The position numbers and the translations under genes were made by a program. From positions 23,245 to 69,619 of the forward strand of contig JAJYQN010000051.1 in NCBI GenBank assembly GCA_021794595.1: DNA of 46,375 nucleotides, in the 5' to 3' direction. This stretch comes from Pseudomonadota bacterium. Its GTDB lineage: Bacteria; Pseudomonadota; Gammaproteobacteria; Acidiferrobacterales; Acidiferrobacteraceae. The notes beneath the pieces are model-generated. The model searched no databases. It was not told the DNA's origin and saw nothing but the letters and a program-made list of their open reading frames with translations. Below, piece by piece: positions 2,297-11,531 of this stretch (the stretch's first letter is position 1; each line of letters begins with the position of its first letter).

Positions 2297-4792
2297 TCAT
2301 CCCCGCGCTCCGCCAGAATAGGTCACGAGCGAACCACTCCGGGTGTTGCCACTACTGCCCGTAACCTTGCCATCCGGTACCGGCACCGCCAACGGCTGGT
2401 CCTTATTTTTAGCCGCCGACATCGTGCACGTGCGCGCCACGCCCCGCTGAGTGGGGTTACGACCCTGGGCCCAGTGGCCTTCGGTGCCCGTGACCTGCTG
2501 GCTCCGACTCCAATCGTCACCGGTAATTTGGTGCGCGCCTGGTGCCGGCGGCTCCTGTTGTCCCTCGGACTGCACGGCCGGCGGCGCGCTCTCGGGTACC
2601 GATACCGCACTGGCATCCCGCGACCGAAACTCCGGCGTCCCCGTGACCAGGCCGCGCGCGAGATCCACCGGACCGGTAATGCGTCGGCCCATTTCGGCGT
2701 TCCCCGTCACCTGCGACCGCCCCTGCCGGGACGGCGGAATGATGCTGAAGTCCTCGGGCACCGCAGGACTCGCCACAGCCGCGGCCGGGCGCGGACTCAC
2801 GTACCGCCGGCTCGCGACCGCGCCCGCCGACGAGGGCTGGCCCTGCATCTTCTCTAACTGCGCTTCAAGCTCCTGCACTCGGGCCTTGCAACCACAAGCC
2901 GCACAGTCGCCGCCGGCCGCCGGCACCTTATCCCGGGCGCTACGCGCTGCCGCCTGGGAAAAGTGCAACTCCTCCCCCGCATACGGGGTGCCGGAAACCG
3001 CCACGTGCGCACCTGCCTCGTTGCCGGTGACATCCGGGGCCGGACCCAAAGCCGGCCCACTCACGAGCTGGCCGCGGCCGGTCCTGGTCAAGGCGACCTT
3101 GGAGGCCTCGGCCTGAGGCACGCTGTCGCACTGGGCGTAGTGCTCACGCCCGTAATAATCGATCCCGGTGACGGGCAGGCATCCGCCGCGCTCGTCACCT
3201 GTCGTTTTTGGGAGACGATCCATCCCCGTTCCCGTCACGACAGAGCCGTTTAAGTTGGTCATGGTCTGCACCTTGTCCGTACCGCCGCCGCAAAGGCGGG
3301 GGGCTACATAGCCCGCACCGGTGACGCGCTGACAAGATCCAGGCTCGTTACCAGTGACCTTCTCCGAACGCTCCACCAAATTTCCGGTGATGCGCTGACC
3401 CTTCCGAGTATCGGTCTCCTCAACCTTAGCTGGCCTTGTCGGCTCAGCCTCGGTTCGACACGTGGCCCGAAAGGTCTCCTGACTCAAGTACTCGATGCCC
3501 GTCACCGTGCGGCACGCACCCGCTTCGAGCCCCGTGATCCGAGAACTCGCATCGGCAGCCGTGCCTGTGACCCCGGTACCTCGAAAGGTGTGGGTCTCGG
3601 CGACCTTCTTCGGCACACCGTTTATCGTCATGCGCGCCGCGCCGCCATCGGAATACTGAGAACCCGTAATCTTCTGCGCGGCGCCAATCTCAGCGCCCGT
3701 AGCCCGACCAAGCCTAGCCTCATCGCTTCCCGATACCGGCACTTGCCGACGCTCGGTCAAACCCACAGCCACCTTGTCTGGACGGGCCGGGGCTTCGGTC
3801 TTACAAAATGATTGGAAATTCTCGAGACTCAGATACTCGGTCCCCGTGACGCCACGGCAAGCCCCCGCCTCGTCACCCGTGACACCTCCCGCGCGCCCGA
3901 CCTGGGTACCGGTCACCGCCACATGCTTCGCCGTGCTCCCCACGCCCACTTTCGCGGGATTAGGGGTCGCTCGCGTCCCACAAAACCGCGAATAATGCTC
4001 TGCGCCCGTATACTCGGTGCCCGTGATGCTCCGGCAACTCCCGGCCTCGACCCCGGTGACGGCATGATTCCGATCAACCAGCGTTCCGCTCACCGTACCG
4101 CCGGCTGCCGTTGTGCTAATCTCGACCTTTTGCGGCGCCCTAAACTTCCGAGAACGTTGTTGTCCGGTCGGACGCGCCGGCTTTGCTGACCCGCGCCCGT
4201 GCTTCGCCAGTTCCTCGCGGTGTAACCGCGCAAACTCGTGAGTATTCCCGGTCTCCAGATACCGCAGCCGAGCGGCCGCCGAACTTAAGCCACGCATCAC
4301 GTTCAGGGCGACCTTCCCGCGATTCGCGAGCGAACGCCGCCGTGCCTTGCATAAGGTCCGCACCGATCCGTCGCGCCCGCCAAAAACCTCGGGATGGGTC
4401 TCCGCAATCTCGCAGACCGAATCAAGAAACTCTTCCTCGACCCCAGGCACCAAAGGCGGGGCAGTCCGCGTCTCGGGCGCCTTAGCGGGAGGGGTAGACG
4501 GTGAGCGCCCTGGCGCCTGACGCTGGCCAGGATCTGACCAGCACTGGGCGCCAGCGCAACGCGCGGCGCGATACGCCAAAGCGGCTTCCCGTCCACGAGG
4601 TTTCGCGACCTGGCCCTCGGCCTTCACCGGCCCAGGCGTCACCGCCGAAGCCATGGGCTTCGTCTTGGGCACATCCTTCCGAACGGCGGGCCGTCCCTGC
4701 TGTCCACCCTGCTTACGCAAGGCCTGCTGACGCCGCATTTCCTGCGCCAGCTCACGGCCGCGCAAGCCACCGGATGAGGATAAGTCAGACAT
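2297..4792 (-). CDS. csoS2: Carboxysome assembly scaffold CsoS2
   Basis: CsoS2 is the disordered scaffold that links RuBisCO to the shell; here it has 831 residues. The N-terminal region carries Rubisco-binding basic helices (GRELAQEMRRQQALRKQG, TLCKARRRSLANRGK, EFARLHREELAKHGRG). The middle region has the repeated VTG motifs with paired cysteines (for example AGSCRSITGTEYTG). The C-terminal region ends in the shell-anchoring peptide GSSGN...SLVTYSGGARG. I chose the ATG at 4792 because GAGAGGGGGAC precedes it; an in-frame GTG at 4822 would add 10 residues. The gene carries a -1 frameshift signal at 3167-3212 (listed separately), which predicts a 532-residue short form (CsoS2A-like) besides the full-length form. 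It lies between cbbS and csoSCA. Confidence 0.96.
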   Translation of the reverse strand: MSDLSSSGGLRGRELAQEMRRQQALRKQGGQQGRPAVRKDVPKTKPMASAVTPGPVKAEGQVAKPRGREAALAYRAARCAGAQCWSDPGQRQAPGRSPSTPPAKAPETRTAPPLVPGVEEEFLDSVCEIAETHPEVFGGRDGSVRTLCKARRRSLANRGKVALNVMRGLSSAAARLRYLETGNTHEFARLHREELAKHGRGSAKPARPTGQQRSRKFRAPQKVEISTTAAGGTVSGTLVDRNHAVTGVEAGSCRSITGTEYTGAEHYSRFCGTRATPNPAKVGVGSTAKHVAVTGTQVGRAGGVTGDEAGACRGVTGTEYLSLENFQSFCKTEAPARPDKVAVGLTERRQVPVSGSDEARLGRATGAEIGAAQKITGSQYSDGGAARMTINGVPKKVAETHTFRGTGVTGTAADASSRITGLEAGACRTVTGIEYLSQETFRATCRTEAEPTRPAKVEETDTRKGQRITGNLVERSEKVTGNEPGSCQRVTGAGYVAPRLCGGGTDKVQTMTNLNGSVVTGTGMDRLPKTTGDERGGCLPVTGIDYYGREHYAQCDSVPQAEASKVALTRTGRGQLVSGPALGPAPDVTGNEAGAHVAVSGTPYAGEELHFSQAAARSARDKVPAAGGDCAACGCKARVQELEAQLEKMQGQPSSAGAVASRRYVSPRPAAAVASPAVPEDFSIIPPSRQGRSQVTGNAEMGRRITGPVDLARGLVTGTPEFRSRDASAVSVPESAPPAVQSEGQQEPPAPGAHQITGDDWSRSQQVTGTEGHWAQGRNPTQRGVARTCTMSAAKNKDQPLAVPVPDGKVTGSSGNTRSGSLVTYSGGARG
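3167..3212 (-). promoter_or_regulatory. Programmed -1 ribosomal frameshift signal in csoS2
   Basis: On the minus strand the in-frame codons CTC CCA AAA ACG contain the heptamer C CCA AAA (3212-3206), a canonical X XXY YYZ slippery site. After a 6-nt spacer, GGTGACG (3199-3193) can pair perfectly with CGTCACC (3173-3167), with a possible inner 3-bp stem GGC/GCC. In the -1 frame the ribosome reads AAC GAC AGG and then TGA (3197-3195), adding Asn-Asp-Arg and stopping. Known fact: Halothiobacillus csoS2 makes CsoS2A and CsoS2B by -1 frameshifting at a slippery site plus a 3' structure. Part of the stem comes from codons for the repeated VTG motif, so the hairpin alone would be weak evidence. The combination is strong. 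Confidence 0.8.
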
Positions 4793-6645: not shown

Positions 6646-6965
6646 AGATCCCTCCTAAGGTATCAATCACTCAACTCGACCTGCGAAACTGCATCCCTCG
6701 ATGCACGCCTGCGCTGGCTCTGGAAATGTACGACCGGGATACCCCAATCGCGCTCGCGCCTTCACTGTCGGCGCCACTTATAACCGCTCCGCGTCCGGGG
6801 TGCTTGCTACCGCCCTGTAGACAAATCATGTCCGTTGCGCCACACAGCCTGCTCACACACCCTGGGCGGCGATTTCTGTCCCCGAGGTGGCTCGCGACCA
6901 CCGCTCACAACCTCACGCGTCTTGCGTGAGCGCGCACCGTCCGCTCCACTATCCCTAGCGTAGGA

Positions 6966-7021
6966 AATGTACGGAAGCTACTTCATAGGGTAAAGTAAAA
7001 AGAACTTAACGTTACCTTTTA
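6966..7021 (+). repeat. 56-bp direct repeat, copy A (candidate CbbR site)
   Basis: This AT-rich block matches the block at 7269-7324 at most positions, in the same orientation and 303 bp apart. The best-conserved part is GTAAAGTAAAAAGAA followed by TTAA and GTTA. It includes TAA-N7-TTA at 6996-7008, which resembles the TNA-N7-TNA half-sites described for CbbR. CbbR binding is inference from sequence shape and position. Confidence 0.6.
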
Positions 7022-7268
7022 GAAAAGTAATACCAAGATCTCCGCTCTGCTCGCTCGCTGAACCGCGGCTCCGAGCATCACGGGGTCCGCGCGGCATCTT
7101 AACACGACCAAGGCCCCTGGCGAGTCGTCGGAGACAAACGGCGTTTCCCGTGCCCAATCCCCTTCCATCGCTGATCCCGAGATCAAAACCCTGAGTCGGC
7201 TGGTGGCGCGCTCCTCATGAAGAGGGCACGAACCGTCCGGTCGAGCCGCAATCGGCCTAGCCCGGGGC

Positions 7269-7324
7269 AATGTACAAAGGCCATTTCATAGAGTAAAGTA
7301 AAAAGAAATTAAGGTTATATTATG
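7269..7324 (+). repeat. 56-bp direct repeat, copy B (candidate CbbR site)
   Basis: The second copy of the AT-rich block, ending 14 bp before the TTG start of cbbR. The TAA-N7-TTA arrangement is retained at 7299-7311. Its position suggests that CbbR could control its own gene here, while copy A serves the cbbL side. The block also contains the GGAG that may act as the cbbR ribosome-binding site. Confidence 0.6.
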
Positions 7325-7338
7325 GAGAACTAAAACCT

Positions 7339-10084: not shown

Positions 10085-10777
10085 ATGGCTGATCGCTTTC
10101 GCTTCACCGACAACCGATTAACCGTCCGCATCCTGGAGACCTGCAAAGATCATCTCCAAGCCTTCCAACTGCGCCATGTTATCTATTGCAGTAGCCTGGC
10201 CTGGGTGAAGGGCCGTCCCGATGGGCTTGAATGCGACGCCTACGAAGAGGGCTCCACGTCGATCGGTGTCTTTACCGAGGACAACACCCTTGTCGGGGTC
10301 GTGCGCCTCATACCCTCCGAGCGTCCATTTATGCTGGAACGGGAGTTCCTGACCCTTGTCGGTCCCGATCACTCCATCAAAAAGCAGGCCGACACCGTCG
10401 AGGTCACCCGTCTGGCCACCCGCCGGACGCCCCGATCGCAAGGCCCCTCGCTACCGATCTCCTGTCTCCTCTACAAGGGTATCTATCACTGGTCTTGCGG
10501 CCACAGTGTTCGCTATCTCTACCTCGTCGTCGAAACGGCTTATCTGCGGACCCTGCGTAGATGGGGCTTTCCCTGCTCGGCGCTGGGTCCCGCTCAGATC
10601 CTCGATCGCGGCGCACCGTGTGTCGCGGCACTCTTGGATTGGGAGGCCTTCCGTGCTCAGGCGCTGATACGACCCTCGCCGTTCACGAGTTGGCTCATAG
10701 ATAGTCGCCAAACACGCCGAGCGCCGCCGCCTGCGCTATCGCCTGAACCCGATTACGCACCTTCAACTTGCGCATGA
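10085..10777 (+). CDS. LuxI-family acyl-homoserine lactone synthase
   Basis: This 230-residue autoinducer synthase would make an N-acyl-homoserine lactone from SAM and an acyl-ACP or acyl-CoA. Conserved family residues are visible: Arg30 in LRHVIY, Trp40, Asp51 in ECDAYEE, Arg74 in VVRLIP, Phe82, and the Glu106/Arg109 pair in VEVTRLATRR. The usual second acidic residue after Asp51 is Glu54 rather than Asp, and the Phe four residues after Arg30 is Tyr34; both are mild substitutions. The C-terminal 27 codons run antisense to the end of the luxR gene (83-bp overlap). The acyl chain made cannot be predicted. The short region upstream contains an imperfect inverted repeat (CCAGATAGC at 9997-10005, GCTATCTAGG from 10048) that may be regulatory. 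Confidence 0.88.
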   Translation: MADRFRFTDNRLTVRILETCKDHLQAFQLRHVIYCSSLAWVKGRPDGLECDAYEEGSTSIGVFTEDNTLVGVVRLIPSERPFMLEREFLTLVGPDHSIKKQADTVEVTRLATRRTPRSQGPSLPISCLLYKGIYHWSCGHSVRYLYLVVETAYLRTLRRWGFPCSALGPAQILDRGAPCVAALLDWEAFRAQALIRPSPFTSWLIDSRQTRRAPPPALSPEPDYAPSTCA

Positions 10778-11531
10778 CATTGTGAAAATGAAAAGTCACG
10801 GTGCGCTCGCTAATGCCCATAATCCGCGCCATTTCCCATGTCGTCTTGCCCAGGCTCGCCCAACGCAAGGCCTCGTGCTCCCGAGTCGTCAACGATACGG
10901 CGCGGGGCGCACCTCCCGCGAGCCGCACCAAGATACCGTGCAGCATCGGCGTCAAGTACTTGAGCATAATCTGGTAGCGCGACTCCTGGAGAAAGTCCTC
11001 TCCGACAAAAGACAGCACGCTGCCTCCGCTTTGTCCGCTGCAGGCCATACCCAGCGTCATGCCGTCCCTTAACCCAAAACGCCCCGAGGTCTCGATAAAC
11101 TGGCGTTCATCCGAGGACGTGACATTGCGATAGGTGTGCGACCAAATCTGGGGGGCATAGTGCGCAAAATGGATGCGCAGCACGGGATCGACTAAGTCAT
11201 ACCGATGGTCTTGGTACAAGGCAAGCCATTCCGGGGGCCAATCGATGGCGAGAATCGCCTTTACTTCAAGAGCCCCGATTCTGGTATCGAGTCGGACAAG
11301 GGCACATAAGACGGCATCGAGAGGGACCAAGGCCTTAAGCGCACGCAAAACGTCCTGTCCCGCGTCCAGGCTCGCGGCCCTTCCGGCTTGGTAGGCGAGC
11401 ATCGCGAGCGCTACCATATCTCGTTTCGAGAGCCGTGCGAGCTCGCTTTGCAGGCCGCCCATCCCATCAGGTGCAGACGCTAAGGTCATACATTCAAAGA
11501 GACGCGGGTTTGTGTCCTTCCACAGTACCAC
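10695..11531 (-). CDS. LuxR-family quorum-sensing regulator
   Basis: A 278-residue regulator with an N-terminal autoinducer-binding domain (WPPEWLALYQDHRYDLVDPVLR, then PQIW and FGLRDGMTLGM, carry the family's Trp, Tyr, Asp-Pro, Trp and Gly) and a C-terminal GerE-type helix-turn-helix (LTTREHEALRWASLGKT, ISERTVTFHFHNVMRKL). It would bind the lactone made by the convergent luxI product and then bind DNA. The 5' end is uncertain. AGGAGG at 11536-11531 overlaps the GTG used here and is better spaced for a rare CTG at 11525; an ATG also exists at 11489. The last 27 codons overlap luxI tail to tail. It sits next to the pigment operon, a plausible but unproven target. Confidence 0.9.
   Translation of the reverse strand: MVLWKDTNPRLFECMTLASAPDGMGGLQSELARLSKRDMVALAMLAYQAGRAASLDAGQDVLRALKALVPLDAVLCALVRLDTRIGALEVKAILAIDWPPEWLALYQDHRYDLVDPVLRIHFAHYAPQIWSHTYRNVTSSDERQFIETSGRFGLRDGMTLGMACSGQSGGSVLSFVGEDFLQESRYQIMLKYLTPMLHGILVRLAGGAPRAVSLTTREHEALRWASLGKTTWEMARIMGISERTVTFHFHNVMRKLKVRNRVQAIAQAAALGVFGDYL

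Follow-up and report, generated by a model that had tools for sequence, protein, structure and literature searches.

CsoS2 governs the building of alpha-carboxysomes, and the csoS2 gene of Halothiobacillus neapolitanus is known to undergo a -1 frameshift (Chaijarasphong et al. 2016, as cited in the accessible text of the review PMC5009743). Excerpts of the same 2016 review give 79 of 162 csoS2-bearing species as predicted to frameshift, and the available sections of a 2025 review (PMC12312397) place a slippery sequence in most proteobacterial csoS2 genes and call the reason why some alpha-carboxysomes need two CsoS2 forms unclear. Thiomicrospira crunogena is the organism reported in the literature to have a single CsoS2 form. 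The gene taken here as H. neapolitanus csoS2 (L126) encodes an 869-residue product, which matches PDB 9ly8 over residues 1-869, and carries the heptamer CCCAAAG, a D-V-R tail and a 570-residue short form; the same figures are published in the accessible part of PMC5009743.

In the 46,375-nt stretch of DNA analysed here (the window), csoS2 occupies positions 2297-4792 of the minus strand as an open reading frame with an ATG start and encodes an 831-aa full-length (CsoS2B-like) product. This product belongs to the CsoS2 family: its middle region matches the Pfam domain CsoS2_M (PF12288; E 2.3e-116), the protein matches CsoS2B chains in PDB, and the gene adjoins cbbL, cbbS, csoSCA and two csoS4-type genes. 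Two 72-nt direct repeats (6963-7034 and 7266-7337), which are 78% alike and 303 nt apart, are located in the interval separating cbbL from a LysR-type gene of divergent orientation and are perhaps duplicated operator or promoter regions. An autoinducer-synthase gene (identified by Pfam; 10085-10777, plus strand) lies ~3.4 kb from cbbL and is faced by a frame at 10695-11531 (minus strand) for a putative LuxR-type regulator, assigned by eye.

The frameshift cassette predicted in csoS2 spans positions 3212-3167 of the minus strand, where the RNA reads CUC CCA AAA ACG ACA GGU GAC GAG CGC GGC GGA UGC CUG CCC GUC ACC. The slippery heptamer C CCA AAA (3206-3212) is in the correct phase, as the zero-frame codons at this position are CTC CCA AAA, the last two encoding P528-K529. 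In this gene, CCA accounts for 5 of 56 Pro codons and AAA for 4 of 32 Lys codons. The heptamer is followed by a 6-nt spacer (ACGACA; 3200-3205) and a perfect 7-bp stem, which consists of the 5' arm GGTGACG (3193-3199) and the 3' arm CGTCACC (3167-3173; codons GTC ACC, Val-Thr). After a slip, the -1 codons are AAC GAC AGG TGA (Asn-Asp-Arg-stop), and the predicted short form thus comprises 529 zero-frame residues plus N-D-R, i.e. 532 residues, beside the full form of 831. These features were all found as the earlier note had described them; its reading is refined in that the -1-frame TGA (3195-3197) lies inside the 5' arm and is itself part of the stem. The note had also proposed a 19-nt loop. 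The interval between the arms (3174-3192) is indeed 19 nt long, but 12 of its bases are predicted to be paired here (7+3+3 bp).

The segment is very probably an H. neapolitanus-type element for programmed -1 ribosomal frameshifting in csoS2. When CCA occupies the P site and AAA the A site, the ribosome would encounter the GGUGACG/CGUCACC stem 6 nt downstream, and in some ribosomes both tRNAs would move back by one base and pair anew with CCC AAA. The shifted ribosomes would read AAC GAC AGG and stop at UGA, producing a CsoS2A-like protein of 532 residues that lacks the shell-binding region at the C terminus, whereas unshifted ribosomes would produce the 831-residue form. Slipping in this organism and its rate are inferred, and what either CsoS2 form does is taken from the literature; the slipping A-site tRNA would be tRNA-Lys(UUU). 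According to the accessible text of PMC4066793, V_VV.A_AA.R motifs rank as efficient, and in E. coli C_CC.A_AA.G combined with a strong stimulator gave 54%. Such a delimited cis-element would make the presence or absence of the short form predictable from sequence. Re-initiation was also considered and rejected: the GGNTGC motif provides a -1-frame NTG beyond the stop, but the -1 frame that follows varies between 0 and 229 codons, no length being shared, and one gene has no stop in the -1 frame past the NTG.

The heptamer and the stem, whose absence from close relatives would have spoken against the earlier note, are conserved in 12 of the 13 genomes of the same genus. All 13 contain csoS2; CCCAAAA is replaced by CCG CAA in the exception (G007). 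In a second genus of the family, one genome (G017) keeps the site, whereas the CsoS2 of another (G016) is shorter and lacks the repeat. A wider set of 93 distinct csoS2 frames was assembled from the best 80 of 579 loci (one genome scan), the relatives and three Halothiobacillus-genus genes, and it is biased towards site-bearers because the 80 loci were chosen by similarity to this gene. In this set, C CCA AAR with an early -1 stop was found at the homologous repeat in 71 frames, the other 22 lacking the site. The spacer length is constant in all 71 elements, although its sequence varies, and three codons precede the -1 stop in every one of them. The search required an early -1 stop; yet in the unfiltered alignment every row with CCCAAAR has the early stop and GGT. 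Site presence needs five changes on the CsoS2 tree of the 93 rows. In the genus Halothiobacillus, the site occurs in four of eight genomes (G060 being represented by L059); four more genes of this genus, which lack the site (L128-L131), were left out of the 93. This conservation at the nucleotide level strongly supports the proposal that programmed -1 frameshifting at the H. neapolitanus position would yield CsoS2A- and CsoS2B-like forms.

For a class-wide census, 369 genomes were drawn evenly over the class of the window, and CsoS2 was found in 72 of them; stretches with one csoS2 place each were taken from 70 genomes, the other two being G000 and G003. The homologous site is present in 12 of the 72 (10 of the 70 plus G000 and G003), a lower bound because at least 4 of the 70 stretches stop at a contig end. 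A covariance model of the element recovers the same 12 at >=54 bits, and G258 scores 52 bits without a proper heptamer. The genome containing the window yields one strong match (69.4 bits, by construction, as this element is a member of the model) and one weak match in the preceding csoS2 repeat. Among the matches listed for the 369 genomes, one lies outside csoS2 (G308, 29 bits) and was taken as chance. The census suggests a share below the 'most proteobacterial csoS2' of the available sections of PMC12312397, from which its sampling differs. As the site is present in only 12 of the 72 census genomes and half of the Halothiobacillus-genus genomes, it is dispensable for alpha-carboxysomes generally. 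In Chromatiaceae, the csoS2 genes of the closely related L071 and L057 differ at the site (GGC CCA AAA and AGC CGA AAA, respectively). This pair, together with G007 within its genus, offers natural pairs for testing the loss of the short form.

Codon usage was compared between the site repeat (67 of the 71 genes fit the repeat pattern used) and 207 other M-repeats of the same genes. The Gly codon GGT, the source of the TGA, is used in 67/67 site repeats vs 69/207 others, and GAC for Asp (62/67 vs 59/102), GTC for Val (66/66 vs 28/103) and ACC for Thr (66/67 vs 131/207) are likewise enriched at the site, the last two forming the 3' arm. The seven outer stem pairs form in 67/67 site repeats and 6/207 other M-repeats. 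Within the conserved loop motif (GGATGC at 3179-3184, GGGTGC in most relatives), the Gly codon is GGG or GGA in 59 of the 61 site repeats with Gly there, and codon identity is 0.83 compared with an expected 0.33. Codon identity was examined along the gene among genes <60% identical (69 of the 71 genes; 2019 of 2346 pairs), and 15-codon windows over the element rank top of 555 (1.95). CCA and the preceding C are fixed by gene selection, and GGT partly so; a window starting at +4, without the proline codon and the preceding base, still reaches 1.78, compared with 1.34 for the best window away from the site. Numbered from the proline codon, identity is well above the usage-based expectation at +4, +5, +6, +9, +10, +12, +13 and +14 and below it at the Gly codons +8 and +15. 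Outside the element, expectation is also exceeded at AGC/GTG (+29/+30), GGG (-5), GGC (-25) and TCC (+36), in fewer pairs than at the element codons. The consensus element can be written as NNC CCA AAR NNN NNN GGU GAC GAG NNN NNN GGG UGC NNN CCC GUC ACC. Because the -1 stop cannot account for the codons of the 3' arm, the predicted stem itself is selected.

Base pairing was analysed in 60 of the 62 distinct elements, after exclusion of L087 and L090, which carry a 3-nt insert. All seven outer pairs are present in 60/60 elements; a compensated U-A occurs once (L108), and six cells are wobble pairs. Four of the seven are invariant, which was counted against the structure. Past an A.C mismatch, the stem may continue with two upper pairs, picked after inspecting the sequences, between stem positions 10 and 9 (3190-3191) on the 5' side and 25 and 24 (3175-3176) on the 3' side. 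Pair 9-25 is formed in 52/60 elements and pair 10-24 in 48/60 (C-G 41, U-A 5, A-U 1 and G-U 1; 12 unpaired). RNAalifold alone predicted the seven outer pairs and not the upper ones. In a shuffle control, none of 500 alignments reached four of five pair measures and 7 of 500 reached the fifth. In the true register, 96.3% of cells are paired vs 20-52% when the 3' side is slid; a slide of the 3' arm by one column yielded 12 both-side changes vs 10 in the true structure, though with 38.5% of cells paired. The mean fold z relative to synonymous recodings is -2.62 for site repeats and -0.52 for the others, and in 48 of 65 genes the site repeat has the lowest energy of all repeats listed. Seven pairs can also form in three site-less rows (L054, L056 and L057), six in L010 and four to six in the others, some on a neighbouring repeat. 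The alignment that the earlier note had called for, in search of a conserved phase and a covarying stem, revealed a conserved heptamer and stem with a few compensated pairs. Judged from prediction and conservation, the downstream stem-loop is under selection at the RNA level. The frameshift model does not account for the conserved GGGUGC loop motif, which was counted against it; AGC/GTG at +29/+30 is, by eye, not complementary to the motif, and a pseudoknot with this loop is not supported. An alternative inner GGG/CCC hairpin was rejected, as it is lost, by eye, where the proline codon reads CGC.

How readily such a cassette could arise by chance was estimated from 20,000 synonymous recodings of csoS2 with its own codon usage: 394 contained, at any position, an in-phase CCCAAAR followed by an early -1 stop, and in 64 of them a 7-bp stem was also present at a suitable distance. 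The cassette is the sole one of its kind among the 41 frames of >=200 codons in the window. CCCAAAR with an early -1 stop was also found at a non-homologous place in 7 of the 70 census csoS2 genes, so that a heptamer with a short tail is in itself weak evidence, and it is conservation at one homologous place that makes the case for the predicted element. These seven genes are also what would be expected if the cassette were a by-product of the amino-acid code of the repeat, in which the pairing of the codons for TGDE...VTG and the spelling of P-K as CCA AAA would be coincidental. TGxE and VTG are encoded in other M-repeats too, and two other repeats of this csoS2 can form six of the seven pairs. 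However, the site and the 207 other repeats in the same genes contrast strongly in their choice of codons, constraint falls on the element codons and not on the Gly codons +8 and +15, and the recodings reproduced the complete cassette in the 64 cases alone. The by-product explanation is in essence refuted by codon choice, codon identity and stem pairing, and we consider it very unlikely.

The two remaining explanations concern the way in which the element acts. Transcriptional slippage on the A run, generating mixed mRNAs in place of ribosomal frameshifting, might be suspected from the five consecutive A in the window, but such slippage would require longer runs, 26 of the 71 genes have only three A followed by G, and a stem at ribosome spacing would be superfluous; the probability of this mechanism is practically negligible. 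It has also to be asked whether the stem and slippery codons form a pause element that slows the ribosome for co-translational assembly, the short product being inconsequential. Although the short form is reported, in the accessible literature, to be non-essential for carboxysome formation, a pause could do without an in-phase CCA AAR and without a -1 stop at a constant distance. The TGA-making GGT is fixed as well, though GGT serves the stem too. A mere pause is therefore highly improbable, and programmed ribosomal frameshifting is the reading adopted below.

If ribosomes slip at the site, the lysine tRNAs of the host may matter. According to PMC4066793 and PMC5009743, AAG is paired well by tRNA-Lys(CUU), which makes slipping less frequent. 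The genome of the window contains tRNA-Lys(UUU), tRNA-Lys(CUU) and three tRNA-Pro, including UGG. In a survey of 67 of the 71 site-bearing genomes (42 with an AAA site and 25 with an AAG site), the tRNA-Lys(CUU) pattern was matched in 30/42 AAA-site vs 3/25 AAG-site genomes (Fisher p 2.6e-6) and, among the 57 genomes with any tRNA-Lys by a looser pattern, in 30/38 vs 3/19 (p 7.9e-6). No match was obtained in 22/25 AAG-site genomes, where an absent match is not proof of an absent tRNA gene, and G064 (H. neapolitanus) gave no tRNA-Lys match with any pattern used. The slippery codon is AAA in 30 of the 33 tRNA-Lys(CUU) genomes, though AAG is preferred elsewhere in the gene: from the other Lys codons, AAG would be expected at 27.4 of these 33 sites and was seen at 3, and in the genomes without tRNA-Lys(CUU) it would be expected at 24.0 of 34 and was seen at 22. 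The Fisher p-values are weakened because the genomes are kin, and an independent-pairs test falls short of significance; the tree provides 10 independent AAA/AAG pairs, of which ~5 follow the predicted direction, none the opposite and five are equal (median p 0.0625). The three exceptions with an AAG site and tRNA-Lys(CUU) (L065, L070 and L073) belong to one five-row tree group with two AAA rows.

The association of AAA with tRNA-Lys(CUU) fits slippage on tRNA-Lys(UUU). No earlier report of it for csoS2 was found in the literature searched, though the 2016 csoS2 paper could contain one, and the association is thus apparently new. If true, it would show by comparison between genomes that bacterial -1 frameshifting is governed by the tRNA in the A site. 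In the available part of PMC4066793, a survey of IS elements found that tRNA-Lys(CUU) does not preclude AAG motifs, which occur in 46 of the 83 species with this tRNA; csoS2 may for this reason be a cleaner case.

A search of 80 site-less csoS2 genes for in-phase X XXA AAN or X XXT TTN heptamers gave G GGA AAR, in 10 genes, as the commonest at one column. This candidate is at codon 510 in L078 and in the same column in L079, L080, L082, L084, L089, L097, L099, L166 and L167; these genes, picked by having the motif, are mostly from Thioalkalivibrio. In a Thioalkalivibrio-type tree group of ten rows, it is present in eight and absent from L098 and L100. GGA represents 3-9% of the glycine codons in the eight of the ten genes examined closely, and the preceding codon, be it for Thr, Ser, Ala or Val, has G as its last base. 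Only seven of the 91 invariant Gly columns keep one codon in all eight genes, and the only other GGA is found just before the start codon. The -1 stop follows after 19 codons in six genes and after 3 in two, and no downstream fold signal was seen at the candidate site (z -1.4 to +1.3). For E. coli, G_GG.A_AA.G ranks in the top three heptamers by efficiency according to excerpts of PMC4066793, and it is possible that G GGA AAR is a second, differently placed -1 frameshift site. That the original site is tuned to host tRNAs, with AAA held where tRNA-Lys(CUU) exists, and that a Thioalkalivibrio-type lineage holds this new site is a tentative proposal, somewhat more likely to fail than to hold. 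If both were true, the ratio of CsoS2 forms would be a selected trait rebuilt by a different route.

Upstream of the heptamer, at a distance of 10 nt, a Shine-Dalgarno-like GGGGA is present in the window (3223-3227), with an anti-SD duplex of -7.2 vs a synonymous mean of -4.9; a fraction of 0.14 of recodings were as strong. In 13 of the 22 genes of a beta/alpha-type group (L074, L075, L076, L077, L083, L085, L086, L088, L091, L102, L104, L107 and L108), the heptamer is preceded at ~9-10 nt by GGAGGT, a full Shine-Dalgarno match. The mean duplex energy in this group is -8.9 vs -6.1 in recodings, and only 9% of the genes pass 0.1 singly.

The earlier note regarded the element as an extension of the mechanism to another lineage with a very short frameshift tail. 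This novelty claim fails because the cassette is already present in H. neapolitanus, where the tail is just as short, three residues being the length in all 71 site-bearing genes; the mechanism and tail length are already known, and the present element is a further example. The csoS2 genes of the window and H. neapolitanus share the homologous repeat, CCCAAAR, the 6-nt spacer, the GGTGACG/CGTCACC stem, the GG-purine-TGC loop motif and three -1-frame residues followed by TGA. They differ in the lysine codon of the heptamer (AAA here, AAG in H. neapolitanus), the tail (NDR and DVR, respectively) and the upstream GGGGA stretch, which is present here and absent from H. neapolitanus. In beta-carboxysomes, the short form of CcmM is an internal-start product without the N-terminal domain, not a frameshift product. 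CcmM nevertheless resembles CsoS2 in that one gene gives rise to long and short scaffold forms (PMC12312397, available sections). The E. coli dnaX gene resembles csoS2 in having a lysine codon AAR as the second codon of the heptamer, a downstream stem and two products per gene (PMC5009743, accessible text), but its heptamer is A AAA AAG, unlike the C CCA AAA of csoS2, and it is described in the accessible literature as requiring an upstream Shine-Dalgarno stimulator.
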